From the NCBI GenBank assembly GCA_000752995.2, contig LM994634.1, forward strand, positions 1 to 64,000: a DNA stretch of 64,000 nucleotides, given 5' to 3'. The stretch is from Haemophilus massiliensis (lineage in GTDB: Bacteria; Pseudomonadota; Gammaproteobacteria; Enterobacterales; Pasteurellaceae). Shown one piece after another: positions 27,307-45,981 of the stretch; within the stretch, counting starts at the first letter, position 1; each line of letters begins with the position of its first letter. Position numbers and translations under genes: made by a program. The notes beneath the pieces are model-generated. The model was not told where the DNA came from and searched no databases. It saw only the letters and a list, made by a program, of their open reading frames with translations.

Positions 27307-29313
27307 TTATAAAATTTCTTTCGCTTTCGCCACGACATTTTCTACCGTAAAGCCGAACAGCTTAAATAGTTGCTCCGCCGGGGCGGATTCGCCGAAGCGG
27401 TGCATGCCGACGATACGTCCGTCAATGCCGACGTATTTATACCAGAAATCTGCGATGCCAGCTTCGATCGCTACCCGTTTGGTTACGGCATGTGGCAAGA
27501 CGCTTTCGCGATATGCCGCATCCTGTTTGTCGAAGACGTTGGTGCTTGGCATGGAGACTACCCGCACTTTGACACCTTCGGCTGCCAGCACCTCCGCCGC
27601 TTGCATAGCCAATGCCACTTCTGAACCTGTAGCGATTAAAATTAAATCCGGGCAGCCACCTTTGTCGCAACATTCTTTTAAGATGTAACCACCGCGCGTG
27701 ACGTTAGCCAATTGTTCGGAAGTGCGGTTCATTTGTGCGAGGTTTTGGCGCGTGAAGATCAAAGCGCTCGGGCCATCTTGACGTTCTACCGCCGCTTTCC
27801 ACGCAATAGCGGATTCCACTTGGTCGCATGGTCGCCATGTTTCAAGATTTGGAATTAAGCGTAGGCTGGCGGTTTGTTCTACCGGTTGGTGAGTCGGGCC
27901 GTCTTCGCCCAATCCGATGGAATCATGGGTATAGACAAACAAGCTGCGCTGTTTCATTAATGCCGCCATGCGTACCGCGTTGTGGGCGTATTCGTAGAAC
28001 ATTAGGAATGTCGCACCGTAAGGAATAAAACCGCCGTGCAGTGCGATGCCGTTCATAATCGCCGACATGCCGAATTCACGCACGCCGTAGTTAATATAGT
28101 TGCCGTCTTGGTTGGTGTTGGCACGAATTGGTTTCGAACCGCTCCACAGTGTTAAGTTGGAACTGGCCAAATCTGCTGAACCGCCTAAAAACTCCGGCAG
28201 AATATGAGCATAGGCTTCAATCGCATTTTGTGAGGCTTTGCGGCTGGCGATAGTTGCCGGATTGGCTTGCAATTTTTCAATAAACGCTTGGCTTTCTTGC
28301 GCCCAATTTGTCGGTAATTCGCCTTGAATACGGCGGCTGAATTCCGCAGCCAGTTGAGGATGGGCTTTGGCATAAGCGGCAAATTTTTCGTTCCATGCGG
28401 TTTCTGCTTGGCTGCCTTTGTCTTTGGCATTCCATTCGGCATAAATTTCTGCCGGGATTTCAAACGGCGCATAATCCCAATGTAAGGCTTTACGTGTTAA
28501 GGCAATTTCTTCATCGCCTAACGGTGCGCCGTGGCAATCATGGGAATTGGATTTATTCGGTGAGCCGTAACCGATGATGGTTTTGCAAATAATTAACGTC
28601 GGTTTGTCAGTTTCCGCCTGTGCTTGTTTGATCGCTTCAATGATTTGCGTCGGATTATGACCGTCAACCGCAGGAATCACCTGCCAGCCGTAGGCTTCAA
28701 AACGCTGTTGGGTATTATCCGTAAACCAACCGTCCACATGACCGTCGATAGAAATATTGTTGTCGTCATAAAAGGCAATTAGTTTACCTAACCCCAATGT
28801 TCCTGCTAAAGAACAGGCTTCATGAGAAATCCCTTCCATTAAGCAGCCGTCGCCTAAGAATACATAGGTGTGGTGATCAACGATGTCATGTCCGGGGCGA
28901 TTAAATTGTGCGGCTAAGGTTTTTTCCGCAATCGCCATGCCGACGGCGTTAGTAATACCTTGCCCCAGCGGCCCGGTGGTGGTTTCTACGCCCGGTGCGT
29001 AACCGTACTCCGGGTGCCCCGGGGTTTTGGAATGCAATTGACGAAACTGTTTTAAATCTTCAATGGATAAATCGTAGCCGGTCAAATGTAAAAGGCTGTA
29101 AATCAACATTGAACCATGCCCGTTGGAAAGCACGAAACGATCGCGGTCGGCCCATTTAGGATTATTCGGGTTGTGTTTTAGAAAATCGCGCCATAACACT
29201 TCGGCAATATCCGCCATGCCCATCGGTGCTCCGGGGTGACCGGATTTGGCTTTTTGCACGGCATCCATGCTCAAAAAACGAATGGCGTTAGCAAGTTGTT
29301 TTCGGGCTGTCAT
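27307..29313 (-). CDS. tktA: Transketolase
   Basis: A 668-residue thiamine diphosphate enzyme of the pentose phosphate pathway that moves two-carbon units from D-xylulose-5-P. The cofactor loop [20 protein letters not shown] is present, followed by [11 protein letters not shown]. The pyrimidine domain carries [16 protein letters not shown]. Length is close to E. coli TktA (663). It lies next to the sugar acid cluster whose end product, D-xylulose-5-P, is its substrate; this may be coincidence. An uptake word lies inside (27720-27728) and another just after the stop (27292-27300). Confidence 0.96.
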
Positions 29314-29530
29314 GTTATTCTCCTATGATACATTAATAATAAATTTATAAAATAACGATAAAAGTGCGGTCATATTTTACCTTATTTTCGTTAGAAAAGA
29401 GGAATTAATTTAATCGGCAATTAAACCAAAAATAAAACGACTCCTTCTCGGTATAGATTGATAGGAGCGTTTGATCAATGTTAAAAAAACGGTCGTGGAA
29501 CAGGCATAAAAATATGCGCCGTATTTAATA
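29314..29530. other. Spacer upstream of tktA
   Basis: It holds one uptake word (29362-29370) and AT-rich sequence that should include the tktA promoter on the minus strand. No gene is seen. The segment to its right (29531-29718) is the sgbH relic. Confidence 0.5.
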
Positions 29531-29718
29531 TTATGCCCCGTATTTCTCAATTTCCGCACGAATAGTCTGTGCGGTTTCCCTAGCGTTGTCGCCCACTAAG
29601 GCGCGAGCGGTGATAAAGGCTTTCGCGTTCACTTCAACCTGACTTTCCGTTTGGTGTCGGCAACCGTTTTTTCGAGGCTTAGGGAATCAAAGGCGATTTG
29701 TAGTAATGGTTTTGGCAT
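29531..29718 (-). pseudogene. sgbH: Relic of 3-keto-L-gulonate-6-phosphate decarboxylase (sgbH)
   Basis: Only 188 bp of about 675 remain. The start encodes MPKPLLQIAFDSLSLEKTVA, nearly the start of the intact ulaD at 38879, then a 4-base deletion shifts the frame. The end encodes the KAFITARALVGDN / ETAQTIRAEIEKYG tail, matching the ulaD C-terminus. About 490 bp between them, including most catalytic residues, are deleted. It lies 14 bases after sgbE on the same strand, where the yia/sgb operon's own decarboxylase gene would be expected. It cannot make an active enzyme. Confidence 0.9.
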
Positions 29719-29732
29719 AGAGATTCCTGTTT

Positions 29733-30425
29733 TTACTGCCCATAATAAGCATTTTTACCGTGTTTGCGCAGATAATGCTTATCCAGTAAGGCCTGTTGCA
29801 TAGGTGGCAGGTGCGGGTTTAGCTGACGGGCAAACAGGTTCATATACGCGATTTCTTCCAACACCACCGCATTATGTACCGCGTTATCGCCGTCCGTTCC
29901 CCAAGCAAATGGGCCATGTGAATGCACCAGCACCGCCGGGATGTCTAACGGTGCAATGCCCCGCTGCAGGAAGGTCTCAATAATCACGTTTCCCGTTTCC
30001 AGCTCATAATCGCCCTTGATTTCCGCTTCCGTCATTTTCCGTGTACAGGGGATTTCACCGTAAAAATAATCCGCATGGGTGGTACCCGCGGCTATCAAGC
30101 CTTCCCCCGCCTGCGCCCAAACGGTGGCATGGCGCGAATGAGTATGGACGATGCCGCCGATTTCCTCAAACTGTCGATACAGTGCCAAATGGGTCGCAGT
30201 GTCCGACGACGGCTTTTTCTCGCCCCACACTTTATTGCCCGCTAAATCCACTATCACGATATCGTCCGCCGTCATGCTCTCATAGTCCACTCCCGACGGT
30301 TTAATCGCCACCAAGCCCGATTCCCGGTCGATTTCACTCACATTGCCCCAGGTAAAGGTGACCAGATGATGTGTCGGCAACGCCAAGTTCGCCTTTAACA
30401 CGCGTTCACGTAATGCAGTTAACAT
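29733..30425 (-). CDS. sgbE: L-ribulose-5-phosphate 4-epimerase (copy A, yia/sgb cluster)
   Basis: A 230-residue class II aldolase-fold enzyme converting L-ribulose-5-P to D-xylulose-5-P. Zinc ligands are in [11 protein letters not shown] and [18 protein letters not shown] and the C-terminal [11 protein letters not shown] match E. coli UlaF/SgbE. ATG 30425 lies within the end of sgbU (7-base overlap), giving translational coupling. The protein is identical to the copy at 44389-45081. It is the last intact gene of the yia/sgb cluster and is followed by the sgbH relic. Confidence 0.93.
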
Positions 30426-31279
30426 GCCAATCCCCCTTGTTTCATCTTCTCTTCTATCCAACGACGGGCGTTGATTATTTCAACCAACGGCTCCGGCGCC
30501 TTTTCCGTCCACATTTCAATTAAAAACGCACCGCGGTAATTTAACTGCGACAGTACCTTAAAACAGTCGGCAAAATCCACACAGCCCTCGCCGAACGGCA
30601 CATCGCGGAATTGACCGGCACAGCTTTCGGTCACCTTATAGGTGTCTTTTAAATGAATCGCTGAGATTTTATCGATGCCCAGTTTCAGCTCTTCCGCCAC
30701 ATTATCGTTCCAGGCCGATAAATTGCCCACATCCGGGTACACCGTAAACCATGGCGAGGCAATCAGTTTATCCCACGGCTTCCAGCGTGAAATCGAGCTC
30801 ATAAACCGCGTGTCCATAATCTCCACCGCCAAGGTCACCTGATTATTCGCCGCCAGTTCAACCGCCCATTCCAGACCCTGCTGAAAACGGGCGATAGTGC
30901 CCTCGTCCTGCTCTTCATAATAGACATCATAACCCGCCAGCTGAATGGTGCGAATGCCAATATCTACCGCCAGTTGAATGGCTTTATCCATGATTTCATA
31001 GGCCTGCCGCCGAGTGGCTTCATCATGACTGCCGAACGGAAAACGACGATGTCCGGATAGGCACATGGACGGCACCGTGATGCCGGAGTCCAATACCGCA
31101 CGCACAAAATCCAGCCGCTGCGCCTTGCTCCAGTTTAACCGCGCCAGTCGCTCATCGGTTTCATCGATTGACATTTCCACGAAATCAAAGCCACAGGCTT
31201 TGGCAACCGCCAGACGCGCCGGCCAGTCGAGCGCTTTCGGTAAGGCTTTTTCGTAAATCCCCAGTTTATGTTTTCTCAC
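30419..31279 (-). CDS. sgbU: L-xylulose-5-phosphate 3-epimerase (copy A, yia/sgb cluster)
   Basis: A 286-residue TIM-barrel enzyme turning L-xylulose-5-P into L-ribulose-5-P. Metal-ligand regions known from E. coli UlaE are present: [28 protein letters not shown] and LIEMWTE. It starts at GTG 31279 ([14 protein letters not shown]) after AGGAGAACC. It follows lyxK by 21 bases and overlaps sgbE by seven. The protein is identical to the copy at 43535-44395. Confidence 0.93.
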
Positions 31280-31300
31280 AAGGTTCTCCTGTATATAGGG

Positions 31301-32749
31301 CTAATGTAAGGTTTTCAACGCCTCGACTAATTGAACATATTTATTATATTTTCTTTGATACGCCGCGAAATTATCGGGATTTGGGTGAATTTTCTGCATA
31401 TTACCGGTTAATTTAACGGAATTTTCACCCGCACTTTGCATTGCCATAAGAGCGGCACCCAAGCACCCCGTTTCTTCTACCGACGGAATCTCCAGCGTAA
31501 TTCCGGTCAGATCCGCTAACATTTGCAGCCACACAACAGATTTGGCCGGTCCACCGGTAACTCTTAGTATTTCGGTATTCGGAAAGCGTTGCAGCATCCG
31601 ATTTAGATGATACATCAGGCTGAACAGCACGCCTTCATAAATGGCTTGCAGCATGTGTATCTGGGTATGATAGGATTGCATACCGTAAAAACCCGCCTGC
31701 ATACCCAATCCGGCGTTAGAACCATACAAGAACGGTACAAATAAGACCGAACTTGCCGCCGCCGGCAGCTGTGCAATGCCGTGATTAATTTGGTTATAAT
31801 CTAAATTCCACTGCTTGATGAACCATTCTAGATTGCCGGCGGAGGTAGGGCTGGCTTCATGAACCAGAAATTTGCCTTGTTGTGCATAACGCCCGTAAAC
31901 AAAAGGAATGGTTTGCGTCTGATCAATATGCTCGGTCAGTCCGCTGACCACCGACCAAGTACCTAAAACCACATTAAGTTTTTTCTCATCATTCAATCCG
32001 GCACAAAGTGCGGTGGAAATCACATCAAATAACCCGCCCACCACCGGTGTACCGGCTGCTAGTCCGCAGGCTTGCGCCGCCTGTGGCGTAATATAACCGG
32101 CGATCTGAGCCGGCTTAATCACCGGCGGAAGTTTTTCGATTATTTCCGCTAAATCTAACAACTGTGCCAACTCAGGATCATATTTCCCTTGCTGCATATT
32201 ATATAAATTGGATTCGGAAATATTGGTTTCTTCACAATGCAGTTCGCCGGTCAGACAAAACCGCAGATAATCATGCGACATCAATATATAACCGATATTG
32301 GAATAACGTTCCGGTTCATGGCGCTTAATCCACTGTAAAATGGATACCGGATGACCTGTCCACAAAGTTTGTCTGGTGAGCGGGTAGAGTTTTTCCGGTA
32401 TTCCCTGTTGCTGCCATTGTCTGACAATATCTAACGCGCGTTGATCGGAAGACAAAATCGCGCGCCCTAAGGGCTGTTTGTGCTGATCTAACAAGAATGC
32501 GCCTTTTCCTTGAGCGGAAATACCGACGCCTTTGATCTTATCCGGTGTAAGCTCGCTTTCTGTTACGGCACGTTTAATCACTGACGCACAGACCGCCCAC
32601 AGTTGTCGCATATCCCGTTCGGCATAACCGGCTTTTTCACTAATCACCGCTAAACTTTCCCGCACGGAAAAGCGCATATTGCCCTGTTGGTCAAAAAGAG
32701 CCGCTTTAATAAAGGTTCCGCCACAGTCAATGCCTAAATAATAATCCAT
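31301..32749 (-). CDS. lyxK: L-xylulose / 3-keto-L-gulonate kinase (FGGY family)
   Basis: A 482-residue sugar kinase. The N-terminal phosphate loop is YYLGIDCGGTFIKAALFDQQ, and the second domain has the ATP site VTGGPAKSVVWLQMLADLTG and ETGCLGAALMA. Order and neighbours match E. coli lyxK and H. influenzae HI1027. In the yia pathway it phosphorylates 3-keto-L-gulonate or L-xylulose made after YiaK. A strong hairpin separates it from yiaO. An uptake word lies inside (32006-32014). Confidence 0.9.
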   Translation of the reverse strand: MDYYLGIDCGGTFIKAALFDQQGNMRFSVRESLAVISEKAGYAERDMRQLWAVCASVIKRAVTESELTPDKIKGVGISAQGKGAFLLDQHKQPLGRAILSSDQRALDIVRQWQQQGIPEKLYPLTRQTLWTGHPVSILQWIKRHEPERYSNIGYILMSHDYLRFCLTGELHCEETNISESNLYNMQQGKYDPELAQLLDLAEIIEKLPPVIKPAQIAGYITPQAAQACGLAAGTPVVGGLFDVISTALCAGLNDEKKLNVVLGTWSVVSGLTEHIDQTQTIPFVYGRYAQQGKFLVHEASPTSAGNLEWFIKQWNLDYNQINHGIAQLPAAASSVLFVPFLYGSNAGLGMQAGFYGMQSYHTQIHMLQAIYEGVLFSLMYHLNRMLQRFPNTEILRVTGGPAKSVVWLQMLADLTGITLEIPSVEETGCLGAALMAMQSAGENSVKLTGNMQKIHPNPDNFAAYQRKYNKYVQLVEALKTLH

Positions 32750-32818: not shown

Positions 32819-33805
32819 TTATTCCGCTAACGCATCAATTTGCTTAACCAGCTCATCACCGTTTTTCTCGATAAATGCTTTGCGCACATCCGCCTCAATG
32901 ATGTCTTTAAACGGCTTGGTATCCACCTGTTCCACCACTTCGACGCCCGCTTTTTGCAGTTTGCCGATAATCTCTTTTTCATTATCTAAGTTCAGCTGAC
33001 GTTGATATTTTCCCGCTTCCTGTGCCGATTCAAGAATTGCTTTCTGCAATTCCGGGCTTAAACCGTCGAATTTGGCTTTATTCATCACCACGATTAATGG
33101 CGTGTAGCCATGGTTGGTTAGCGATAAATATTTTTGTACTTCATACAGTTTTGCCGACCAGAGAATGCCGATCGGATGTTCCTGCGCATCGACAGCTTTA
33201 GTTTCCAGTGCGGTATAAAGTTCCGACAACGGCATCGGTACCGGATTAGCACCAAGCAGGGTAAAGGCTTGAATATACATCGGATTCTGGTTGGTTCTGA
33301 CTTTTAGACCTTTAATATCGTCCGGTGTATTAACCGGATGTTTGGAATTGGTAAATGAACGGAAACCTACTTCCCAGAACGCCAGTCCTTTTAATCCTTG
33401 CGTTTCCAGATCTTTCAACAGTGATTGACCGATTTCACCGTCCAGCACCGCATAGGCATGCTCGCGGTTTTTGAAAATAAACGGAATATCAATCACATTT
33501 AATTTGGGTTCCAACCCTGAAAAATTCGGTGAACCGGACATTTCGATATCAATCGTCCCTCCGCGGACGGCGCTGATCATCGTCTGCGAATTGCCCAACG
33601 TACTGTCCGGGAACAGGCTTAATTTTAATTCGCCACCGGTTTTTTCTTTTAATAAATCGTTAAATTTTTTCGCCGCGATATGTTGCGTATCGCTGCGCGG
33701 CGCTTCATAACCGAAACGCAGTGTAGTTTGCGCGCTGGCACTACCACTGAAAACTGCAACACTTGCTACTATCATCGCCAGAGTTTTGAGATTAAAAAGT
33801 TTCAT
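32819..33805 (-). CDS. yiaO: 2,3-diketo-L-gulonate TRAP transporter binding protein
   Basis: A 328-residue DctP-type periplasmic receptor. A signal peptide is visible (MKLFNLKTLAMIVASVAVFS, cleavage about residue 25 after SASA). The mature protein starts QTTLRFGYEAPRSDTQH. It includes FWEVGFRSFTNSKHPVNTPD and LKVRTNQNPMYIQAF, where the conserved arginine contacts the ligand carboxylate in this family. It works with YiaM and YiaN. Hairpins flank the gene on both sides. Confidence 0.92.
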   Translation of the reverse strand: MKLFNLKTLAMIVASVAVFSGSASAQTTLRFGYEAPRSDTQHIAAKKFNDLLKEKTGGELKLSLFPDSTLGNSQTMISAVRGGTIDIEMSGSPNFSGLEPKLNVIDIPFIFKNREHAYAVLDGEIGQSLLKDLETQGLKGLAFWEVGFRSFTNSKHPVNTPDDIKGLKVRTNQNPMYIQAFTLLGANPVPMPLSELYTALETKAVDAQEHPIGILWSAKLYEVQKYLSLTNHGYTPLIVVMNKAKFDGLSPELQKAILESAQEAGKYQRQLNLDNEKEIIGKLQKAGVEVVEQVDTKPFKDIIEADVRKAFIEKNGDELVKQIDALAE

Positions 33806-33856: not shown

Positions 33857-35137
33857 TTAAGGTTGCATCCACGAAAGTGGGGTTAAAATTAATGACGGTA
33901 CGAAGATGAACGCAAACAGTAATATGATCATCATTAACATATACGGCAGAATGCCTTTTACTGCCTGATCAAACGGTAATTTCGACACGCCGGTGATCAC
34001 ATTCAATACATTGCCTACCGGTGGTGTAATTAAACCGATAGAGGTATTCAGGATAAACAGCACCCCGAAGTACACGGGATCAATGCCCGCTTCTTCTACC
34101 AGCGGCATCAGTACCGGTGTCAGAATCAATACGGTCGGCGTTAAATCCATCACCATGCCGATAATAAATACGGCTAACATGATAACAATCAGCAATAAGG
34201 TCGGCGAATCAATAAGCGGCTCCAGTAACTCAGTCATTATCTGCGGTAATTCGGCAATCGTAATTAACCACCCCGTCACGTTTGCCGCCGCCACCAGCAG
34301 CATGACTACAGCTGTCGTTTTTCCCGCATTCAACAGCACTTTATACAGATCTTTAATTTTTAATTCGCGATAAACGAACAGAGAAATGATCAATGCATAA
34401 AACGCCGCAACGGCCCCGGCCTCAGTCGGCGTGAACATCCCCGTACGGAAACCGCCGATAATGATCACCGGCAACAGCAGCGCCCAGATACTGTTCTTAA
34501 AGGAAATACATAATTCCGCTTTAGTTGCTTTTGAAAATGTCATTAAATTCAGGTGTTTGGCTTGCCACCACCAGAGCAGTGCTAGACAGACACCCATTAA
34601 AATACCCGGGAAAATCCCGGCCAGAAAGAGTTTGGTAATCGACACACCGCTTGCTACGCCGAATACGATAAACGGAATTGACGGCGGAATAATCGGTGCG
34701 ATAATACCGGCGGTACCGATCAATCCCGCAGAGCTGTTTAACGGATAACCGGTGGTTTTCATCATCGGTAATAACATTGCGGCGACTGCGGCAGTATCGG
34801 CAACGGCGGAACCAGAAAGGCTGGCCATAATCATAGCCGCCAAAATCGCAACAAAACCTAAACCGCCCCGTTTATGTCCAACCAATTTCATAGGTAAATC
34901 AATAATGCGTTTGGATAAGCCGCCTTCATTCATTATTTCGCCGGCAAGAATGAAAAACGGAATCGCCATTAACGAAAAACTGTCTGCGCCGCTAACAATA
35001 TGCTGAGCCAGAATCTGCGAGTCGAACAAATCCAGATGTATCATTAATGCAATGCCGCAGACTAACAGCGAAAATGCAACGGGAATGCCTAAAATGATTG
35101 CCCCTAATAATACGGAAAGGAAGATGATAACCGTCAT
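33857..35137 (-). CDS. yiaN: TRAP transporter large permease subunit
   Basis: A 426-residue DctM-type inner-membrane protein with about 12 hydrophobic segments. Family motifs include IPFFILAGEIMNEGGLS, GSAVADTAAVAAMLLP and FGVLFILNTSIGLITPPVGN. It forms the sodium-coupled translocation part with YiaM. Its start overlaps the yiaM stop by four bases. Confidence 0.93.
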   Translation of the reverse strand: MTVIIFLSVLLGAIILGIPVAFSLLVCGIALMIHLDLFDSQILAQHIVSGADSFSLMAIPFFILAGEIMNEGGLSKRIIDLPMKLVGHKRGGLGFVAILAAMIMASLSGSAVADTAAVAAMLLPMMKTTGYPLNSSAGLIGTAGIIAPIIPPSIPFIVFGVASGVSITKLFLAGIFPGILMGVCLALLWWWQAKHLNLMTFSKATKAELCISFKNSIWALLLPVIIIGGFRTGMFTPTEAGAVAAFYALIISLFVYRELKIKDLYKVLLNAGKTTAVVMLLVAAANVTGWLITIAELPQIMTELLEPLIDSPTLLLIVIMLAVFIIGMVMDLTPTVLILTPVLMPLVEEAGIDPVYFGVLFILNTSIGLITPPVGNVLNVITGVSKLPFDQAVKGILPYMLMMIILLFAFIFVPSLILTPLSWMQP

Positions 35138-35616
35138 TGTTTCGCTCCTTGAATAAACTCGCCGATGGATGTGACAATTCGGATAAGGATTAAGATACCG
35201 ATGCCGAGACCGGCGATCACACTGGCAAGATAAGTCAGTCCCTGCGGTAAGCCTGAAATAGGCGCTAAATTGTTAAGATTAAGTTGGAATTGAATCCAGC
35301 TGCCGTCAATAATGAGATAACAGCAAAAAAGCATCGCTGCATCGGTAAATAATCGCAGCACTTTTTGTTTTAGCGGAGAGAGTTTGTCGGTTAGAATGGT
35401 AACATTGACATGTTGGTTATCGTTAAAGGCAAGAATCGCCGCCAGAAATACCAGCCAGACAAACATATAACGGGATACTTCTTCCGTAACATTAATACTG
35501 CTGTTAAAGCCATAACGCAACACTACGTTCAAAAACACCAGCGTGGACATAATCACCAAGATAGCGACTACCAACACTTCCAGTGCTTTGCCAACAAAAA
35601 TGGCAAGGGATTTCAT
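35134..35616 (-). CDS. yiaM: TRAP transporter small permease subunit
   Basis: A 160-residue DctQ-type membrane protein with four hydrophobic segments. NVTEEVSRYMFVWLVFLAA is the family signature, and NLAPISGLPQGLTYLA follows near the third to fourth segment. It overlaps both neighbours (yiaL and yiaN) by four bases. In H. influenzae YiaM and YiaN are reported as a fusion; here they are separate. Confidence 0.92.
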   Translation of the reverse strand: MKSLAIFVGKALEVLVVAILVIMSTLVFLNVVLRYGFNSSINVTEEVSRYMFVWLVFLAAILAFNDNQHVNVTILTDKLSPLKQKVLRLFTDAAMLFCCYLIIDGSWIQFQLNLNNLAPISGLPQGLTYLASVIAGLGIGILILIRIVTSIGEFIQGAKQ

Positions 35617-36092
35617 AACTCACCTCGAATTTCACTGATTGCAACTTTGACGACCACCTTACGAATGTTACAGCTTTCTCCGTCTATACATGCCGGGCGG
35701 TGTATATCTTCCGGAAAAAATACGGCGAAGCTGCCCGGCTGCATGATGAGTTCGCTTTCGGCTTGCGCATTTTTATAGAAAAGAATGTCGCGCTCGGCAT
35801 TGTACGGCGTCGCAATTTCATTGGTTCCTAAATCGGGGGCGACCCCGATTCGTTCTTTACCGGCATGCAAATATTGCACATCTAAAAAAGTGCGGTGAAT
35901 TTCCGGCAAGTTTTCCGCTTTCGGTTTGGTTTCCAAATCCAGCACCTGCACATACATCACATCTTGTTTAAGCACATAGCGTCCGGCTGCTAATGTATCG
36001 AAATCCGTATTTCTCAGGTATTCAAGCGCCATTTGAATTGCCTTAGGATACTCATTCAGATTTATTTTTGAGATATGTCCGAAAAACATCAC
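35613..36092 (-). CDS. yiaL: YhcH/YjgK/YiaL family protein
   Basis: A 159-residue cupin-like protein of the DUF386 family. HRTFLDVQYLHAGKERIGVA and the AVFFPEDIHRPACIDGES segment carry the conserved histidines and acidic residue. E. coli YiaL lies in the same place, but its reaction is not established. Relatives are linked to sialic acid and uronate breakdown, so an isomerase or mutarotase role is possible. An uptake word lies inside (35888-35896). Confidence 0.88.
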   Translation of the reverse strand: MMFFGHISKINLNEYPKAIQMALEYLRNTDFDTLAAGRYVLKQDVMYVQVLDLETKPKAENLPEIHRTFLDVQYLHAGKERIGVAPDLGTNEIATPYNAERDILFYKNAQAESELIMQPGSFAVFFPEDIHRPACIDGESCNIRKVVVKVAISEIRGEL

Positions 36093-36101
36093 ATCACCTG
36101 T

Positions 36102-37100
36102 CTATAATGATTTGAGTTTAGCCCATACGGTATCATCCACCGGAATGCCGTTCGCTTTGTTATCGGCAAGAATAGCGGTAAATTCATGTCCCGGTAGACG
36201 GACTTCAACGTTCGGATCCGCTCTTTCTGCGGTTTTAACGTAATCCATAATGCGTTGTAGTTTTTCATCTTTGGTTTTGCCGTCGATCAGGCGATCCACT
36301 TCAATGGCGATAAACACCTGCGATACGCAATATTCGTCATCTTTTTCTTCTGTAACCTCCGCAGTGGATAAGCCGTTGGACAGCAATGTTGCAATCATAT
36401 CCAATACGATAGAAAGACCGGAACCTTTCCAGAACCCCATCGGCAGCAGACGGCGGTTTTTTTCTACGGTCGCCGGATCTTTCGTCAGGTTACCGTCATC
36501 ATCAAAACCCGCATCGACAAAGGTTTGTCTGCCGGCTAAACGATTGACTTCTAGCATACCGTAAGAGTACATGGAGCAAGACATATCAACCATAGTAATC
36601 GGGTTACTCGGCACGGCAATAATTAGAGGATTGGTGCCGATACGGCATTCTTTTGCGCCCCAAGGCGGCATCACCGCCAGTGCGTTCGTCCAACAAATAC
36701 CGATGTACCCTTTTTCAGCGGCCTGCCAGCCGTAACCGCCGCCGCGCATCCAGTGATTGGCATTTTTCAGCGCTACTACGCCGATACCGAACTGATCGGC
36801 GATTTCCATTGCTCTGTCCATCATCTTCCGGGCAGTTAGATTACCGATAGCCTGATGTGCATCCCACTGTTCAATGGCGCCTAATGAAAGCACTTTGGTC
36901 GGTTCGGCTTCAGGAATCACATCGCCTTTTTCCAGTTGTTGAATAAAGCGCGGAAAGCGGTTTACACCATGTGAGTAAGCGCCGGCTTGGGTGGTATCGG
37001 CAAACAAGCTTGCACAATCTTCAGCGATATCTTCACGCACATGACGTGCAAGCAGAACACGTTTAAATTCGGCTTTTAATTCATCGTAAGAAACTTTCAT
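36102..37100 (-). CDS. yiaK: 2,3-diketo-L-gulonate reductase
   Basis: A 332-residue NAD(P)H-dependent reductase of the malate/L-lactate dehydrogenase type, the same length as E. coli YiaK. It reduces 2,3-diketo-L-gulonate to 3-keto-L-gulonate. The catalytic region [18 protein letters not shown] and the [20 protein letters not shown] segment match strongly. ATG 37100 has AGGGGTC upstream; an in-frame start at 37127 adds nine residues. First gene of the yia operon, opposite yiaJ. Confidence 0.95.
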
Positions 37101-37342: not shown

Positions 37343-38143
37343 ATGGCGGATGAAAAACAGGGCGGTAATCAAAGTTTAATTCGCGGATTACGCATTCTTG
37401 ATATTTTAAGTAACTTTCCTAACGGCTGTCCGCTGGCGAAACTAGCCGAAATGGCAGAGTTGAATAAAAGTACCGTACACCGTTTATTACAGGGCTTGCA
37501 AAGTGAAGATTATGTGCAGACCGCCGGTTCGGTCGGCAGTTATCGTTTAACCACGAAATGCTTGAGCCTCGGTCAGAAGGTACTTTCTTCGCTGAATATT
37601 ATTCATATCGCCGCACCGCATTTAGAAAAGCTTAATCTGGTGCTCGGCGAGACTGTAAACTTTTCCAAACGAGAAGGCGAACGGGCGATAATGATTTATA
37701 AGTTGGAACCAACGGTAGGTATGCTCAGAACACGGGCATATATCGGGCAGCACCTCCAATTATATTGTTCCGCGATGGGAAAAATTTATCTTGCCTATGA
37801 CAAAAATAGCGGCTATTTGGAGGATTACTGGGCATCTCATCAGGATGTTATTTGCAAACTCACCCATAATACGGTGACAGAATTGGAAGAAATGCGTAAA
37901 GAATTGGCCGATATTCGAAAAAAACAGTTTGCCATGGATAAGGAAGAAAATGAATTAGGCGTAGTATGCCTTGCTTGCCCGATATTCGATTTTTTCGGCA
38001 ATGTGGATTATTCGGTATCGGTGTCGATGTCAGTTTATAAATTACAGCAATTAGGTATACAGTTTTTTTTCCGAGAAATTGCGCAGACCGCCCGTGATAT
38101 TTCCCTTGAGCTGGGTTATACGGCCGATGATCACATGCATTGA
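37343..38143 (+). CDS. yiaJ: IclR-family regulator of the yia operon
   Basis: A 266-residue repressor-type protein. The N-terminal winged helix carries CPLAKLAEMAELNKSTVHRL, and the C-terminal effector domain has LYCSAMGKIYLAYDKN and DKEENELGVVCLACPIFD. It is closely similar to E. coli YiaJ (PlaR), which represses yiaK-S. It is divergent from yiaK and shares its control region. AGAGAGGTT precedes the ATG. Confidence 0.93.
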   Translation: MADEKQGGNQSLIRGLRILDILSNFPNGCPLAKLAEMAELNKSTVHRLLQGLQSEDYVQTAGSVGSYRLTTKCLSLGQKVLSSLNIIHIAAPHLEKLNLVLGETVNFSKREGERAIMIYKLEPTVGMLRTRAYIGQHLQLYCSAMGKIYLAYDKNSGYLEDYWASHQDVICKLTHNTVTELEEMRKELADIRKKQFAMDKEENELGVVCLACPIFDFFGNVDYSVSVSMSVYKLQQLGIQFFFREIAQTARDISLELGYTADDHMH

Positions 38144-38204: not shown

Positions 38205-38879
38205 TTACCAGTATTTTGCAATTTCCGCACGAATAGCCTGTGCAGTTTCCCTACCTTTGTCGCCCACTAAGGCGCGACCGGCAATAAAAGCTTTAGCGTT
38301 TTTAATCTGTTTAAATAAATGAATATCTTCCGGCACAATACCGCCGGTAATGGAAAGCTCAAGACCTAACTCGGAAAGCTGTTGCATTAATGTCACATCT
38401 TCTGATGTCCAGCCTTTACCGGCCAGTTCCGCATCACGGGAACGGTGATAAATAGCCTGTTTTACCCCTAAAGCAACCCAGTCTTTGGCGTCTTCCAGCG
38501 TCCAGTTGCCGTAAATTTCGATTTGAATTTCTTTTTTCACTTTTAATTCGGGATGAGCGGCATTAAATTCATCCGCCACTTTTTTACAGGCGGCTTTCGT
38601 CGCCGGATGAGCAGCGGCGGAAACGGTCAGCCAGTCGGCACCGGCGTCAAACGCCATTTTAGCCAGAATCGCTCCGCCGTCGGTAGTTTTTAAATCGCAC
38701 ACGATAATATGATTCGGATGCAAGGCGCGCAACGTGGAAACGGCTTTCATGCCTTCGGCACAAGCGAGAATGGTGCCCACTTCAATCACTTCAACCTGAC
38801 TTTCCGCCTGTTTGGCATCGGCAACCGCTTTTTCGAGAGTTAGGGAATCAAGGGCGATTTGTAGTAATGGTTTAGTCAT
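38205..38879 (-). CDS. ulaD: 3-keto-L-gulonate-6-phosphate decarboxylase
   Basis: A 224-residue TIM-barrel enzyme turning 3-keto-L-gulonate-6-P into L-xylulose-5-P and CO2. Catalytic residues known from the E. coli enzyme are in place: D11 (QIALDSL), E33 (VIEVG), D62 and K64 (VCDLKTTDGG), plus YHRSRD. About nine extra residues lie before the last motif. It is the only intact decarboxylase here, because the yia copy (29531-29718) is a relic. Last gene of the ula minus-strand operon. Confidence 0.94.
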   Translation of the reverse strand: MTKPLLQIALDSLTLEKAVADAKQAESQVEVIEVGTILACAEGMKAVSTLRALHPNHIIVCDLKTTDGGAILAKMAFDAGADWLTVSAAAHPATKAACKKVADEFNAAHPELKVKKEIQIEIYGNWTLEDAKDWVALGVKQAIYHRSRDAELAGKGWTSEDVTLMQQLSELGLELSITGGIVPEDIHLFKQIKNAKAFIAGRALVGDKGRETAQAIRAEIAKYW

Positions 38880-38923
38880 AATGAGTATCTCCTGAATTTA
38901 AATTATCCGACATAATCAAGGCA

Positions 38924-39391
38924 TTATTCTTCAAGTGCGGTGTCAATAACCGTTAAAACTTCAGCCGCACTGTTGCAGCGCAGGAATTTATCGATATTCA
39001 CCCCAGTTTCACTATCTGGATCATCCAGCACTTGAGTGATCTCCATCAGCCCTTCCATATGTTTATTGCCGTCACTGCCGGCCAGTGCGATCATCATATA
39101 TACAGGATCGTTTTCACCGTCAAAATGTATCGGAGTGTCAAATGTCACCAGTGAAAATGCCGTCTTGATTACGCCGTCTTCCGGTCGAGCATGCGGCATT
39201 GCCAGGCCTGGCGCCAGAATAATATAAGGGCCGATATCCGTAATGCCTTCAATAATGCGATCATAGTAACGCGGTTCCACCGCACCGGAATCAATCAGCA
39301 TATCTATGGCAATTTTAATCGCTTCCTGCCAGCTTGCGGCGGATTGATGTAATTTAATTGAGTTGTTGTCAATAAGAGATTGTTTTAACAT
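38924..39391 (-). CDS. ulaC: Ascorbate PTS IIA component
   Basis: A 155-residue phosphocarrier of the mannitol/fructose IIA type. The phosphorylated histidine is H67 in ILAPGLAMPHARPEDG. It passes phosphate from HPr to the IIB domain of the adjacent UlaA-B fusion. The order ulaAB-ulaC-ulaD is that of E. coli apart from the fusion. An uptake word is present near the stop (38933-38941). Confidence 0.93.
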   Translation of the reverse strand: MLKQSLIDNNSIKLHQSAASWQEAIKIAIDMLIDSGAVEPRYYDRIIEGITDIGPYIILAPGLAMPHARPEDGVIKTAFSLVTFDTPIHFDGENDPVYMMIALAGSDGNKHMEGLMEITQVLDDPDSETGVNIDKFLRCNSAAEVLTVIDTALEE

Positions 39392-39439
39392 TTTTTCTCC
39401 TTAGTGAGTTTTACCGTTAATTCGGTGAGGTAAAGATTA

Positions 39440-41236
39440 TCAGGTGCGAGTGCTATGTTTATTGATCAATGCCTGCAATTCATCGCCGAATGAATTCGGA
39501 TTCAGCATATTCTGTACGCCGAGTACCGAGATATTATCATTGACCACGATTTCGTCCTGTAAATGTCTGGAGCAAACAATAATATCCACGCTGTCCAATC
39601 TGCTTTTATAGTCCGTTACGGCGCATGAGTCCATTACATTCGCAATCCCTTTTTTATCTAGATATCCTTTGATCTTCATTTTCATCATCATGGATGACCC
39701 CTGCCCAGAACCGCATACCGCAAGAATGCGAATCGCTCTATCGGAGGAGCCCGCCGGTGCGCTTTGTTGCGCAGCCTGTTGGTTGCCCACCACTTCGGGT
39801 TCATCATCCAAATCATAGCCGTCCATTTGTTCCAGTGTTTTTCCGGCAAGTGCCGCCGCCGCTTCATCCGCACGCAAACGACGTGAAGCAAAGAACATAT
39901 AAACCATGGATAATGCCAAAATTACAAAGAAGAATCCCGGAATACTGACAATCCCCTGTAATACCGGCGGGAAGAACAACGCCCAGTCGGCCATTCCCAT
40001 CCAGCCATTGAATTCCGTGCCCTGTGTCGCCAATAAGTGAATAACCCAAGCGGAGCCCAACACTTCAATAATGCCCATGACAAAACAGATTTTCAATACG
40101 GCTTTCCAGCCGCCGAACTGATTGGCAAATACCCCGATAGTAGCGTTGGAGAAAAACATCGGAATAAAGCCCGGGATGATTAAAACCGGTGCGCCAACGG
40201 CGAGTAAAATACCGACCGCAACAAACTGACCGATTGCCCCCCACATAAAACCGAACACCATGGCATTTGGTGAGAAAGCATAAATGGCGGCACAGTCGAT
40301 AGCCAGTACAGAATTCGGAATTACACGTTCAGAAATCCCTTTGAACGCTTCCGATAATTCGGCCACGAACATACGCACACCGGTCACGATAACCTGAATC
40401 GCCACCGCAAATTTTAACCCAGTTTCAAGAATATACATAAACCAGTGCGTTTTTCCCGCCATAGTTTGTAAGTTATCCAGACCGAAAGAAAGCAGAATAA
40501 TGCCGAAAAAGACGGTCATCACCAACGCAGTTGCAGAAATGCTGTCATGGAAAATATGCAGCCATTTAGGCAATTTCATATTATCCACGCTGTCATTTTT
40601 ATCACCTAGCTTAGGCGCTAGTTTGGTTGCCACCCAAGAGGCGATTTGCTGCTGATGCCCGATAGAAAACCCCGCCCCGCCGGTGACCGCCTGGGTCGGT
40701 TTATACATAATATTCGATGAGATGCCCCAATAGAGCGCCATCAGCACTGCGGTATAAATCACCGTTTCCCACATAGATGCACCGATGATCATATAAAACA
40801 CCGCAACTAATCCTGCTTGCTGGAACATGATATGCCCGGTAAGCATAATGGTGCGGATGCCAGTGATGCGTCTGAACACAACCAATAAAATGTTTAATGC
40901 CAGTGCTAGCAACACGGCATAGCCGACCCAACCATAATTTTCCCCCATGGTTTCGATGGTGGATTGCATACTGGTATAAGGGTCGATCACTGCACCGGTT
41001 AATCCGTGGAATTCAGACAATTTTTCAATAATAGGTTTAAAACTTGATGTCAATACGCCGGAACCGACCTGCACCATCATAAAACCCACAATCGTTTTAA
41101 TTGTGCCTTTAATGATTGTGGTGGTATCTTTTTTCAGAAGGATATAGCCGAAACAGGCGACTATCCCCAATAAAAAAGGCGCTTTAGACAAAACCTGGGC
41201 GTTAAAGCCCAGAAATAGGTTATAGAGCGTTTCCAT
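39440..41236 (-). CDS. ulaA: Fused ascorbate PTS IIC-IIB (UlaA-UlaB)
   Basis: A 598-residue fusion. Residues about 1-465 are the membrane IIC permease ([59 protein letters not shown]). After a polar linker rich in Q, A and S comes a complete IIB domain, with phosphocysteine C508 in [19 protein letters not shown]. coli encodes these as separate ulaA and ulaB. ATG 41236 with AGAGG is preferred to an in-frame TTG at 41242. It imports L-ascorbate as L-ascorbate-6-P. Confidence 0.94.
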
Positions 41237-41378
41237 AATCAACCTCTTTTTAATCGTTCATATAAAGTTTTTACGATGATTTTCATAAGCCCATAACGGC
41301 TTACCGCTTCCAAACGACAATCAAGCGGGACTAATCATAGCATTTCAAACATGATTGAAAAGATTATTTTTGATAATA

Positions 41379-41570: not shown

Positions 41571-42662
41571 ATGAGCAAAGTTAATGAAATCACCAGAGAA
41601 AGCTGGATTCTTTCTACTTTTCCGGAGTGGGGAACTTGGTTAAATGAAGAAATTGAGTTGGAACAAGTACCGGAAAATAATGTTGCTATGTGGTGGTTAG
41701 GTTGCGTTGGTTTATGGGTTAAAACGCCAGGAGATGCCAATTTGTGCATTGATTTATGGTGCGGGCGCGGTAAAGCAACAAAAAAAGTCAAAGATATGGT
41801 GCGCGGTCACCAAATGGCGAATATGGCTGGTGTACGTAAATTACAGCCGAACCTGCGTAATTCCGTCGGTGTGTTGGATCCGTTTGCCATTAACAACGTT
41901 GATGCCATCGTTGCTACCCACTATCACAACGACCATATTGATGTAAATGTTGCCGCGGCGGTCATTCAGAACCCGGCATTGGATCATGTCAAATTTATCG
42001 GGCCACAATATTGCGTTGATATGTGGACAAAATGGGGTGTGCCGGCGGAACGTTGTGTTGTCGTCAAACCGGGGGATACGGTAAAAATTAAAGACTTGGA
42101 ATTAATCGCCTTAGATTCTTTCGACCGCACTTGTCTGGTAACTCTGCCGGCGCGCGGCGCGGAAGAAAACGGTGGCGAACTGCACGGTATTTGCCCGAGT
42201 GATGAGGAAATGGGCTTAAAAGCAGTGAATTATCTGATCAAAACACCAGGCGGCAATATTTATCATTCCGGTGATTCGCACTATTCCATTTATTATGCTA
42301 AACACGGTAAAGATTACGATATTGACGTGGCATTAGGCAGCTACGGTGAAAATCCGGTCGGTATCGCGGATAAAATGACCTCTGTAGATATTCTGCGCAT
42401 GGCTGAGTGTTTGCGCGCGAAAGTCGTGATTCCGGTTCACCATGATATTTGGACTAACTTTACCGCAAGTACCAACGAGATCCTTGAACTTTATCGTATG
42501 CGCAAAGATCGTCTGCAATATCAATTCCACCCGTTTATTTGGGAAGTCGGCGGTAAATATGTGTATCCGCGTGATAAGAACTTGATTGAATATCATCATC
42601 CGAGAGGATTTGATGATTGTTTTGAGCAAGAACCGAATGTACCGTTCAAATCAATTCTATAG
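41571..42662 (+). CDS. ulaG: L-ascorbate-6-phosphate lactonase
   Basis: A 363-residue metallo-beta-lactamase-fold hydrolase that opens L-ascorbate-6-P to 3-keto-L-gulonate-6-P, the substrate of UlaD. Metal motifs: [19 protein letters not shown] and [27 protein letters not shown] at the start matches E. coli UlaG (354). It is the first gene of the plus-strand ula operon. An uptake word lies inside (42124-42132). Confidence 0.95.
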
Positions 42663-42670
42663 TAAATCCG

Positions 42671-42700
42671 ACCGCACTTTTCAAAAGTGCGGTATGTTTT
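42671..42700. terminator. Paired uptake sequences after ulaG
   Basis: Two adjacent opposite uptake words (42671-42679 and 42685-42693) make an 11-bp inverted repeat with almost no loop, followed by a T-rich stretch. It lies eight bases after the ulaG stop and before ulaR. It may act as a partial terminator reducing readthrough from ulaG into ulaR-E-F. Confidence 0.55.
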
Positions 42701-42773
42701 TTGTTCGTTTATATTGAATTGAGCAAATGGATATTGTAATGTTCGTGATACGTGGTTTAAGGAGAATAACAAA

Positions 42774-43517
42774 GTGAATGAACAAATCAGACATAAAAAG
42801 TTATTAGCGCTATTAGAACAAAAAAAGATGTTATCAGTGCCGGAAATCATTGAATATCTTAATATTTCTCCAGCAACTGCACGACGGGACATTACAAAAT
42901 TAAACCAACAGGGACGCTTGATAAAAATCAGAAACGGTGTGGAATCCCTGTCGCAGTCTCAACCGACCGGTCGCCTGACACATATCAATCATTTTGAGGA
43001 AAAACAACGTATTGCGCAGGCTGCCTGCGCATTATGTAAAGACGGCGAAAGCGTTATTCTGACTTGCGGTTCGACTATGATGATGCTCGGTGAAGCGTTA
43101 TGTAATCGTCGCATTCAAATTATTACCAATTTCTTACCACTCGCCAATTATCTGATTGAACATGATCACGAACAGGTCGTTATTATGGGTGGGCAGTATA
43201 ATAAAAGTCAGGCAATCATGCTGTCTTTAAATGCCATGGATGAAACCTTCGCCGCCAATATTGTGTTTACCAGCGGCAAAGGATTAACCACTGACGGGCT
43301 TTACAAAACCGATATGCTGATCGCTAATTCAGAGCAGCGGATTCTGTCAAAAAGTACAAAACTTGTTGTGTTACTGGACAGTTCCAAACTCGGCAGCGCT
43401 GTCGGTATGCTGTTTACGGAACTGAAAAATATCAATATGTTAATCACCGGTAAAGAGGCCGATCCCGATATAATCAAAACTTTGCGGGAAAAAGGCTTAC
43501 AAGTGATTACCGCATAA
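42774..43517 (+). CDS. ulaR: DeoR-family repressor UlaR
   Basis: A 247-residue regulator. The helix-turn-helix is at the N-terminus (VPEIIEYLNISPATARRDIT), and the effector domain has VILTCGSTMMMLGEAL, IITNFLPLANYLI and VIMGGQYNKSQ. Similarity to E. coli UlaR is high. It starts at GTG 42774 after AAGGAG. In E. coli it represses both ula operons and responds to L-ascorbate-6-P. Here it lies inside the plus operon rather than beside ulaG in a separate unit. Confidence 0.93.
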   Translation: MNEQIRHKKLLALLEQKKMLSVPEIIEYLNISPATARRDITKLNQQGRLIKIRNGVESLSQSQPTGRLTHINHFEEKQRIAQAACALCKDGESVILTCGSTMMMLGEALCNRRIQIITNFLPLANYLIEHDHEQVVIMGGQYNKSQAIMLSLNAMDETFAANIVFTSGKGLTTDGLYKTDMLIANSEQRILSKSTKLVVLLDSSKLGSAVGMLFTELKNINMLITGKEADPDIIKTLREKGLQVITA

Positions 43518-43534
43518 TCATACAGGAGAACCTT

Positions 43535-44395
43535 GTGAGAAAACATAAACTGGGGATTTACGAAAAAGCCTTACCGAAAGCGCTCGACTGGCCGGCGCGT
43601 CTGGCGGTTGCCAAAGCCTGCGGCTTTGATTTCGTGGAAATGTCAATCGATGAAACCGATGAGCGATTGGCGCGGTTAAACTGGAGCAAGGCGCAGCGGC
43701 TGGATTTTGTGCGTGCGGTATTGGACTCCGGCATCACGGTGCCGTCCATGTGCCTATCCGGACATCGTCGTTTTCCGTTCGGCAGTCATGATGAAGCCAC
43801 TCGGCGGCAGGCCTATGAAATCATGGATAAAGCCATTCAACTGGCGGTAGATATTGGCATTCGCACCATTCAGCTGGCGGGTTATGATGTCTATTATGAA
43901 GAGCAGGACGAGGGCACTATCGCCCGTTTTCAGCAGGGTCTGGAATGGGCGGTTGAACTGGCGGCGAATAATCAGGTGACCTTGGCGGTGGAGATTATGG
44001 ACACGCGGTTTATGAGCTCGATTTCACGCTGGAAGCCGTGGGATAAACTGATTGCCTCGCCATGGTTTACGGTGTACCCGGATGTGGGCAATTTATCGGC
44101 CTGGAACGATAATGTGGCGGAAGAGCTGAAACTGGGCATCGATAAAATCTCAGCGATTCATTTAAAAGACACCTATAAGGTGACCGAAAGCTGTGCCGGT
44201 CAATTCCGCGATGTGCCGTTCGGCGAGGGCTGTGTGGATTTTGCCGACTGTTTTAAGGTACTGTCGCAGTTAAATTACCGCGGTGCGTTTTTAATTGAAA
44301 TGTGGACGGAAAAGGCGCCGGAGCCGTTGGTTGAAATAATCAACGCCCGTCGTTGGATAGAAGAGAAGATGAAACAAGGGGGATTGGCATGTTAA
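43535..44395 (+). CDS. ulaE: L-xylulose-5-phosphate 3-epimerase (copy B, ula cluster)
   Basis: A 286-residue TIM-barrel epimerase with the same protein sequence as 30419-31279. The metal-ligand segments [24 protein letters not shown] and LIEMWTE are present. It starts at GTG 43535, 17 bases after ulaR, and overlaps ulaF by seven bases. It acts after UlaD in ascorbate breakdown. Confidence 0.94.
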
Positions 44396-45081
44396 CTGCA
44401 TTACGTGAACGCGTGTTAAAGGCGAACTTGGCGTTGCCGACACATCATCTGGTCACCTTTACCTGGGGCAATGTGAGTGAAATCGACCGGGAATCGGGCT
44501 TGGTGGCGATTAAACCGTCGGGAGTGGACTATGAGAGCATGACGGCGGACGATATCGTGATAGTGGATTTAGCGGGCAATAAAGTGTGGGGCGAGAAAAA
44601 GCCGTCGTCGGACACTGCGACCCATTTGGCACTGTATCGACAGTTTGAGGAAATCGGCGGCATCGTCCATACTCATTCGCGCCATGCCACCGTTTGGGCG
44701 CAGGCGGGGGAAGGCTTGATAGCCGCGGGTACCACCCATGCGGATTATTTTTACGGTGAAATCCCCTGTACACGGAAAATGACGGAAGCGGAAATCAAGG
44801 GCGATTATGAGCTGGAAACGGGAAACGTGATTATTGAGACCTTCCTGCAGCGGGGCATTGCACCGTTAGACATCCCGGCGGTGCTGGTGCATTCACATGG
44901 CCCATTTGCTTGGGGAACGGACGGCGATAACGCGGTACATAATGCGGTGGTGTTGGAAGAAATCGCGTATATGAACCTGTTTGCCCGTCAGCTAAACCCG
45001 CACCTGCCACCTATGCAACAGGCCTTACTGGATAAGCATTACCTGCGCAAACACGGTAAAAATGCTTATTATGGGCAGTAA
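44389..45081 (+). CDS. ulaF: L-ribulose-5-phosphate 4-epimerase (copy B, ula cluster)
   Basis: A 230-residue zinc epimerase, identical as a protein to 29733-30425. Its product D-xylulose-5-P enters the pentose phosphate pathway. ATG 44389 sits in the ATGTTAA overlap with the ulaE stop. It is the last gene of the plus ula operon; a terminator follows at 45093. Confidence 0.94.
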
Positions 45082-45132: not shown

Positions 45133-45981
45133 TTAAAAATTCACCGCACTTTTTAGTTTTTTCAGTGCATTGCTTTCAAGCTGGCGCACTCGTTCGGCAG
45201 AGATATTATATTTAGCGGCGAGTTCTTGCAAGGTCGCTTTGTTTTCATCCAACCAGCGGGCTTTGATAATATCCTGACTGCGTTGGTCGAGACTTTCCAG
45301 CGCTGCCGAGACCTGATCCGCCGCCTGTGTTTCATAATTTTCACTTTCAAGCTCGGCGGCGAAGTCGGAGTTTTTATCTTCCAGATATAATGCCGGTGCA
45401 TAGGTTTCTTCGCCGCTATCGTCGTTCGGCAGATCGAAACCGACATCGGCGCCAGTCATGCGGCTTTCCATTTCAACCACGTCTTCTTTTGATACGCCCA
45501 GTTCGGTGGCGACCATATCCACTTCATTTTCATTGAACCAGCCCAGACGCTGTTTGGTTTTGCGCAGATTAAAGAAAAGTTTACGCTGCGCTTTGGTGGT
45601 TGCAACCTTTACGATACGCCAGTTACGCAGGACATATTCGTGGATTTCCGCTTTAATCCAGTGTACGGCGAAAGATACCAGCCGCACGCCCACTTCCGGG
45701 TTAAAGCGTTTTACTGCTTTCATTAAACCGATATTGCCTTCCTGAATTAAATCCGCTTGCGGCAGACCGTAACCGGAATAGCCGCGCGCAACGTGAATCA
45801 CAAAGCGAAGATGAGACAGAATCAACGTTTTCGCCGCCTCAAGATCTTCTTTATAATACAAACGTTCCGCCAATTCCTTTTCTTCCTCCGCGCTGAGCAT
45901 CGGATATTCGTTTGCGGCTCGGATATAACCTTCCAAGCTGCCTTGAGGAACCAACATCATAGTCTGTGTATCTTTGTTCAT
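45133..45981 (-). CDS. rpoH: Heat-shock sigma factor RpoH (sigma-32)
   Basis: A 282-residue group 3-like sigma-70 family factor. Region 2 has [19 protein letters not shown] and [19 protein letters not shown]. The RpoH box [10 protein letters not shown] is diagnostic, and region 4.2 ends with a helix-turn-helix ([20 protein letters not shown]). It directs heat-shock gene transcription. It follows murB and the DUF2322-like gene, all on the minus strand, but has its own likely promoter. An uptake word lies at its 3' end (45143). Confidence 0.96.

Follow-up and report, generated by a model that had tools for sequence, protein, structure and literature searches.

A decarboxylase pseudogene and a near-identical inverted epimerase cassette at the adjoining yia and ula operons of a Pasteurellaceae genome

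The yia and ula systems have both been described in ascorbate use by Escherichia coli and Klebsiella, with YiaJ and UlaR as repressors (PMC4324149). In Haemophilus ducreyi, ula genes are reported to rise in infection, and the same paper mentions unpublished results in which a mutant lacking ulaABCD showed less growth on ascorbic acid without oxygen (PMC6581864). The locus described here has the same components as the yiaK-S and ula systems of E. coli and Klebsiella, namely a TRAP transporter (as in E. coli), YiaK, a kinase, a 3-keto-L-gulonate-6-P decarboxylase (KGPDC) and two epimerases on the one side, and the ula PTS with UlaG, UlaD, UlaE and UlaF on the other. It differs from them in that its yia-linked KGPDC is a pseudogene, EIIC and EIIB form one protein, ulaE-ulaF stand after ulaG-ulaR, and the two epimerase pairs are near-identical inverted copies. 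The window, by which we mean the whole stretch of 64,000 nucleotides analysed, carries the following features:

27307-29313: tkt, transketolase, beyond the relic
29531-29718, minus strand: KGPDC relic, the joined start and end of a 3-keto-L-gulonate-6-P decarboxylase gene (blastn, tblastn, alignment to ulaD)
29540-29629, minus: 3' piece of the relic, codons 194-223 (tblastn, alignment to ulaD)
29630-29718, minus: 5' piece of the relic, codons 1-31 in ulaD numbering, with a 4-bp deletion inside (alignment to ulaD)
29733-31294, minus: inverted repeat arm 1, sgbE, sgbU and 15 bp upstream, with 3 mismatches to arm 2 (blastn)
29733-30425, minus: sgbE, L-ribulose-5-P 4-epimerase (family profile)
30419-31279, minus: sgbU, L-ribulose-5-P 3-epimerase family (family profile)
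31301-32749, minus: FGGY sugar kinase, read as lyxK (under NCBIfam equivalog cut-offs)
32819-33805, minus: yiaO, TRAP transporter solute-binding subunit (family profile)
33857-35137, minus: yiaN, TRAP large permease (family profile)
35134-35616, minus: yiaM, TRAP small permease (family profile)
35613-36092, minus: yiaL, YhcH/YjgK/YiaL family (family profile)
36102-37100, minus: yiaK, 3-dehydro-L-gulonate 2-dehydrogenase (family profile)
37343-38143, plus: yiaJ, IclR-type regulator (family profile)
38205-38879, minus: ulaD, the only intact KGPDC found in the genome (tblastn, profile searches)
38924-39391, minus: ulaC, PTS EIIA (family profile)
39440-41242, minus: ulaAB, EIIC and EIIB domains fused in one protein (family profile)
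41571-42662, plus: ulaG, read as ascorbate-6-P lactonase, beta-lactamase superfamily domain (family profile)
42774-43517, plus: ulaR, DeoR-type regulator (family profile)
43520-45081, plus: inverted repeat arm 2, ulaE and ulaF (blastn)
43535-44395, plus: ulaE, protein identical to the sgbU product
44389-45081, plus: ulaF, protein identical to the sgbE product
45133-45981: sigma-factor gene read as rpoH, after ulaF

On the minus strand, the yia operon extends from yiaK (37100) to sgbE (29733), with the relic and then tkt after it; the ula genes lie directly past yiaJ, with ulaD-ulaC-ulaAB on the minus strand (38205-41242) and ulaG-ulaR-ulaE-ulaF on the plus strand (41571-45081). All yia proteins gave full-length family matches, the kinase, YiaM, YiaN and YiaJ scoring under the NCBIfam equivalog cut-offs and YiaJ above the Pfam IclR cut-offs. 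Besides the relic no broken yia gene was seen, in agreement with the original prediction, which had also proposed a link between two separately regulated operons. That they have different regulators is likely, judging by the families of YiaJ (IclR-type) and UlaR (DeoR-type); the two operons are less separate than proposed, however, being adjacent and having in common an epimerase pair that is 99.8% identical.

The start codon of the relic lies 14 bp past the sgbE stop, with AGGA ahead of it. When the region was compared with the window by blastn, its two pieces matched ulaD at 87.1% over 93 bp and 87.4% over 95 bp (E=1.6e-24 each), and a tblastn search of the whole genome matched UlaD residues 193-223 to 29540-29632 (E=2e-7) and residues 1-24 to 29647-29718 (E=0.002). 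Both pieces are homologous to KGPDC, collinear and on the same strand. The 4-bp deletion falls between 29650 and 29649, after codon 23, and the large deletion, at 29630/29629, has taken codons 32-193, or 486 bp counted on ulaD, a multiple of three. The longest open reading frame left is 29 codons (26 in the N. massiliensis relic discussed below). We conclude that 29531-29718 is a real KGPDC pseudogene with no frame long enough for an enzyme. Coordinates and lesions agree with the predicted 188-bp fragment after sgbE, in which the start of a KGPDC gene is joined to its end with about 490 bp missing and a 4-bp frameshift, and its predicted alignment to ulaD was recovered at ~87% identity at both ends. 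A search of an E. coli collection with positions 28500-31000 of the window gave no match, as expected for another family.

Three Necropsobacter genomes were compared, namely that of the window (G000), N. massiliensis FF6 (G100) and a third (G101). N. massiliensis has a relic bearing both lesions, the 4-bp and the 486-bp deletion, together with further ones, and in G101 DNA search and alignment showed no relic but a short, different stretch between the cassette and tkt. Since the lesions are shared by two species, the KGPDC gene most likely died before the window species and N. massiliensis split. These common lesions, taken with the E-values above, rule out chance similarity. The two relics agree at 124/159 sites (the 20-bp middle piece left out), which is below ulaD (615/675 sites, with 47 synonymous and 9 non-synonymous differing codons) and the epimerase cassette (91.5-92.4%), so that no constraint on the relic shows. 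A conserved small gene or RNA was likewise ruled out, as the open reading frame differs between the species and the relic drifts faster than ulaD and the cassette. In another genus, an independent KGPDC relic with a different deletion and a stop was seen between tkt and yiaJ (G045, L117:8596-8937); the same interval holds an intact KGPDC in G031 and none in G046.

A codon-based tree was built from 54 script-found KGPDC genes, which are not every surveyed copy (G090 was left out), and the two relics, for which 179 sites were available; supports were taken from the unrooted tree. The five Necropsobacter sequences, relics and ulaD together, group at 100%, and at 74% with G045 and G046 added. The two relics come together at 76%, inner nodes have 59-82%, and deeper nodes are poorly supported. 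The yia-linked KGPDCs of G010, G011, G027, G031, G033 and G040 are placed elsewhere, and among these 54 genes and two relics the relics did not group as orthologues of the yia-linked KGPDCs of other genera. Agreeing with the tree, the G000 relic is identical to its own ulaD at 61/69 and 79/90 sites, against 47-50/69 and 56-61/90 for the yia-linked KGPDCs of five other genomes. The grouping with Necropsobacter ulaD makes simple descent from a yia-type gene doubtful and leaves the ancestry of the relic uncertain: it is either a yia-linked gene converted by ulaD before decay or a copy of ulaD. Position favours conversion, as the relic lies directly behind sgbE, the same place in which G010, G011, G027 and G040 carry an intact yia-linked KGPDC.

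A UlaD query against the 2.60-Mb genome returned, besides the two pieces of the relic, a single full-length copy (tblastn), and the PF00215 profile found ulaD and one other full-length locus above cut-off, read as pyrF by family, two lower matches of 9-12 bits being set aside. Neither whole-genome search thus found a second intact decarboxylase, the finding that would have spoken against the original prediction. The assembly comprises 9 contigs and is rated 99.99% complete, and a second KGPDC copy in a contig gap is unlikely. UlaD is full length and scores 329.6 bits on subfamily NF009832 (cut-off 250) and 245.2 on equivalog NF009831, under its cut-off of 294. With active-site numbering that we take to be that of E. 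coli UlaD, D11, E33, D62, K64 and D67 are present by number; the later residues of the set mismatch by number, for which an insertion is the probable cause. With only one intact KGPDC in the genome, a working yia pathway would need UlaD. That much of the claim that diketogulonate use requires UlaD stands, but the situation is not special to this genome, as it is the usual state of the family (63/69 genomes with yiaK and ulaG). The gene content is best explained if UlaD also acts in the yia pathway, which is plausible.

The family was surveyed in 140 Pasteurellaceae genomes, including that of the window, with E-value thresholds of up to 0.01 for KGPDC, 1e-60 for YiaK, 1e-20 for UlaE/SgbU and 1e-60 for UlaG. 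A KGPDC within 7 kb of ulaG was called ula-linked, and counts are raw, with relatedness ignored. Neither G000 nor G045 was credited with a KGPDC gene for its relic pieces; G008, in which both ulaG and yiaK are broken, and G115, in which yiaK is broken, stayed in the survey; the single KGPDC of G133, a genome without yiaK, was not placed near ulaG because of separate contigs. KGPDC was found in 92 genomes, YiaK in 78 and UlaG in 83, and all 78 YiaK genomes have a KGPDC, wherever encoded. Among the 69 genomes with both yiaK and ulaG, 63 have a ula-linked KGPDC only, the window's included; these are 62 plus G001, which was counted here though its genes are split by frameshifts. Five have KGPDC in both places (G011, G027, G031, G040 and G110), and G033 has the ula KGPDC and two beside sgbE, one of them incomplete (residues 1-176 only). 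A yia-side relic was seen within the 63 in G000 and G045 by UlaD tblastn, with G100 added by DNA search, and many of the 63 also have no sgbU-sgbE in the yia cluster.

Nine genomes have yiaK without ulaG. In six of these (G010, G053, G083, G105, G107 and G109) the KGPDC lies inside the yia cluster, and the remaining three keep a ula-derived one. In G012 it stands beside a broken ulaC, with none in the yia cluster, and is sister to the ulaD of G011 at 100%; in G090 it stands beside ulaE-ulaF, with no ulaC or ulaAB within the 19 kb examined; in G103 it lies beside sgbU-sgbE, and is yia-linked by distance but called ula-derived from the tree, where it groups with the ulaD of G104 at 100%. Among natural cases, these three genomes speak most strongly for UlaD acting in the yia pathway. 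The functional proposal is therefore better supported by the family survey than it could be from the window alone, and is plausible, yet ordinary for the family. A reverse dependence is suggested by G011, G031 and G110 (L121, L124 and L129), whose ula clusters are without ulaE-ulaF in the stretch examined and whose epimerases are in the yia cluster. In L130, L132, L151 and L175 a gap of ~5 kb between yiaO and lyxK holds genes outside the query set.

The original prediction had missed that the two epimerase pairs, sgbU-sgbE and ulaE-ulaF, constitute an inverted repeat of 1562 bp at 99.8% identity, with 12.2 kb between its arms. The repeat is bounded by the stop codon at one end and by a point 15 bp ahead of the start codon at the other. 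Within genomes, the copies are 99.8% identical in the window, 97.8% in G100 and 97.0% over 603 bp plus 97.1% over 175 bp in G101; elsewhere they reach 100% in G026, 98.8% in G024, 99.2% in G028, 99.6% in G027 and 99.5% in G106, and are lower, not homogenised, in G025 (90.6%) and G040 (77.4%). The copies are thus 97-100% alike in 8 of the 10 two-cassette genomes measured. G033 was left out of the comparison, as its contigs end inside the cassette (short ends agree at 93/93 and 181/186). Between species, the window's cassettes are 91-92% identical to those of G100 and 81-83% to those of G101 (assembled parts only), a difference of about 8-19% within Necropsobacter, and in the same 8/10 genomes the paralogous copies are closer to each other than to orthologues in other species. 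The pattern is one of concerted evolution, for which gene conversion would be the simplest explanation. Sites differing between the copies are too few to map a crossover. The motif AAGTGCGGT, which we take to be the Pasteurellaceae uptake-signal core, occurs at 39 sites in the window against 0.51 expected, with one site within 400 bp outside each repeat arm (29362 and 45143), counts that fit natural transformation as a route of conversion. In G024 (A. endocarditidis; L219 and L225) each of the two sgbE/ulaF copies is interrupted by small indels of its own, which point either to errors of assembly or to a pair of pseudogenes.

Gene order around the cassettes also varies. The draft of G100 places the relic and tkt behind ulaG-ulaR-ulaE-ulaF and rpoH behind lyxK-sgbU-sgbE; in this assembly, then, the 12 kb between the cassettes run in the opposite direction to those of the window. 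In the Avibacterium assemblies, the flank with tkt follows the yia cassette in A. gallinarum (G025), A. paragallinarum (G026) and G027, and the ula cassette in A. endocarditidis (G024) and Avibacterium sp. 21-586 (G028); the other flank is exchanged reciprocally, and the exchanged flank is 96-97% alike between G024 and G025. If the joins in these draft assemblies are right, both orientations occur, with reciprocal flanks. The gene order of the window is probably the older one, since tkt is at the yia end in G105, G106 and G110 as well.

We think it likely that the yia operon of the window ends in a neutral KGPDC pseudogene, that UlaD serves both operons, and that the epimerase pairs are homogenised by conversion and recombination. 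The position of the relic, its lesions and their sharing with N. massiliensis suggest that a KGPDC once closed the operon yiaK-L-M-N-O-lyxK-sgbU-sgbE and is now a neutral pseudogene. The TRAP transporter would import 2,3-diketogulonate, YiaK would reduce it and the kinase would phosphorylate the product; decarboxylation would fall to UlaD from the neighbouring ulaABCD operon, and the last steps to epimerases encoded in both operons. Gene conversion between the inverted copies would keep the epimerase pairs near-identical, and recombination could exchange the segment between the cassettes, or their flanks, as the identities and arrangements suggest. The KGPDC, lying outside the converted tract, may have been dispensable because ulaD sufficed.

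As to the origin of the relic, it could instead be the remnant of a partial ulaD duplication, and not of an ancestral yia-type KGPDC. The place of both relics inside the Necropsobacter ulaD clade speaks for this, as does the closeness of the G000 relic to its own ulaD; however, the relic occupies the position of the intact gene in four other genomes, its start codon and likely ribosome-binding site are still in place, a yia-linked gene converted by ulaD before decay yields the same tree, and that tree rests on 179 relic sites. We regard such a duplication as possible, with some doubt. A different challenge is that the yia pathway itself may be decaying, with the relic as the first step in its loss and nothing depending on UlaD. 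One pathway gene has indeed been lost, and stops inside yiaK are seen in two other yiaK genomes (G008 and G115). Yet the other yia genes of the window are full-length, and between Necropsobacter species YiaK is 98-100% and YiaN 99% alike, although two of these species parted after the relic had arisen; YiaK is 100% alike (rounded) between the window and N. massiliensis, which indicates that the pathway is maintained. We consider decay of the pathway improbable.

The near-identity of the epimerase pairs might also reflect, in each genus, a recent duplication of the cassette into the other operon, and not conversion of old copies. In keeping with this, 59/69 yiaK+ulaG genomes have a single sgbU/ulaE place (G033, cut by contig ends, among them). 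The same two positions, after lyxK and after ulaR, are nevertheless filled in Necropsobacter, Avibacterium, G040 and G106, divergence between the copies persists in G040 and G025, and in the window only the gene pair and 15 bp are common to the copies, all of which makes recent duplication rather unlikely in our view. Some of the inverted or exchanged arrangements may be assembly artefacts, near-identical repeats being open to misjoining in drafts, and this is a serious reservation. The longest exact stretches common to the cassette copies are 623 bp in G100, 378 bp in G024 and 805 bp in G028, indels counted, and the G101 contigs break inside the repeats; the type-strain genome of N. rosorum was announced from 2x250-bp reads in 48 contigs (PMC4192374). 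However, the separate assemblies of G024 and G028 agree with each other and both differ from G025, G026 and G027, and the G100 stretches contain no N. Such artefacts could conceivably account for the N. massiliensis inversion and for the flank exchange seen in G024 and G028, but we would not expect it. Going further in the opposite direction, the cassette could act as a recurrent recombination switch, whereby the 12-kb segment flips in living populations, downstream genes (formerly including the KGPDC) come under yia and ula transcription in turn, and the resulting instability has promoted repeated loss of the distal KGPDC; we find this very unlikely.

The reading that we prefer, a pseudogene at the end of the yia operon with UlaD serving both operons and the epimerase pairs homogenised, would make UlaD a concrete, testable example of a single enzyme shared by two catabolic operons, and the 78/78 pattern in the family predicts a phenotype of ulaD on diketogulonate. 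With cassettes this similar, draft Pasteurellaceae genomes may give an unreliable picture of gene order at yia and ula; the cassettes are also a system in which bacterial gene conversion and inversion can be measured. Among the titles and abstract openings listed by a literature search, with most subscription papers outside it, none dealt with the KGPDC relic, the inverted repeat or a Pasteurellaceae survey of either. Loss of a redundant pathway gene and concerted evolution of duplicates, with recombination, are known kinds of event. The epimerase cassette is more notable than the relic, as the two operons appear to exchange and homogenise DNA through it.

Other Pasteurellaceae yia clusters resemble that of the window in having no KGPDC of their own and a ula cluster beside or apart from them (63/69); they differ in that, among genomes with a ula-linked KGPDC only, a yia-side relic occurs just in G000, G045 and G100. 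Concerted evolution is familiar from tufA/tufB and the rrn operons, whose copies are near-identical within a genome and diverged between species, with inversion between inverted copies. Compared with these, the case in the window concerns a catabolic two-gene cassette that is common to two operons and single-copy in most relatives.
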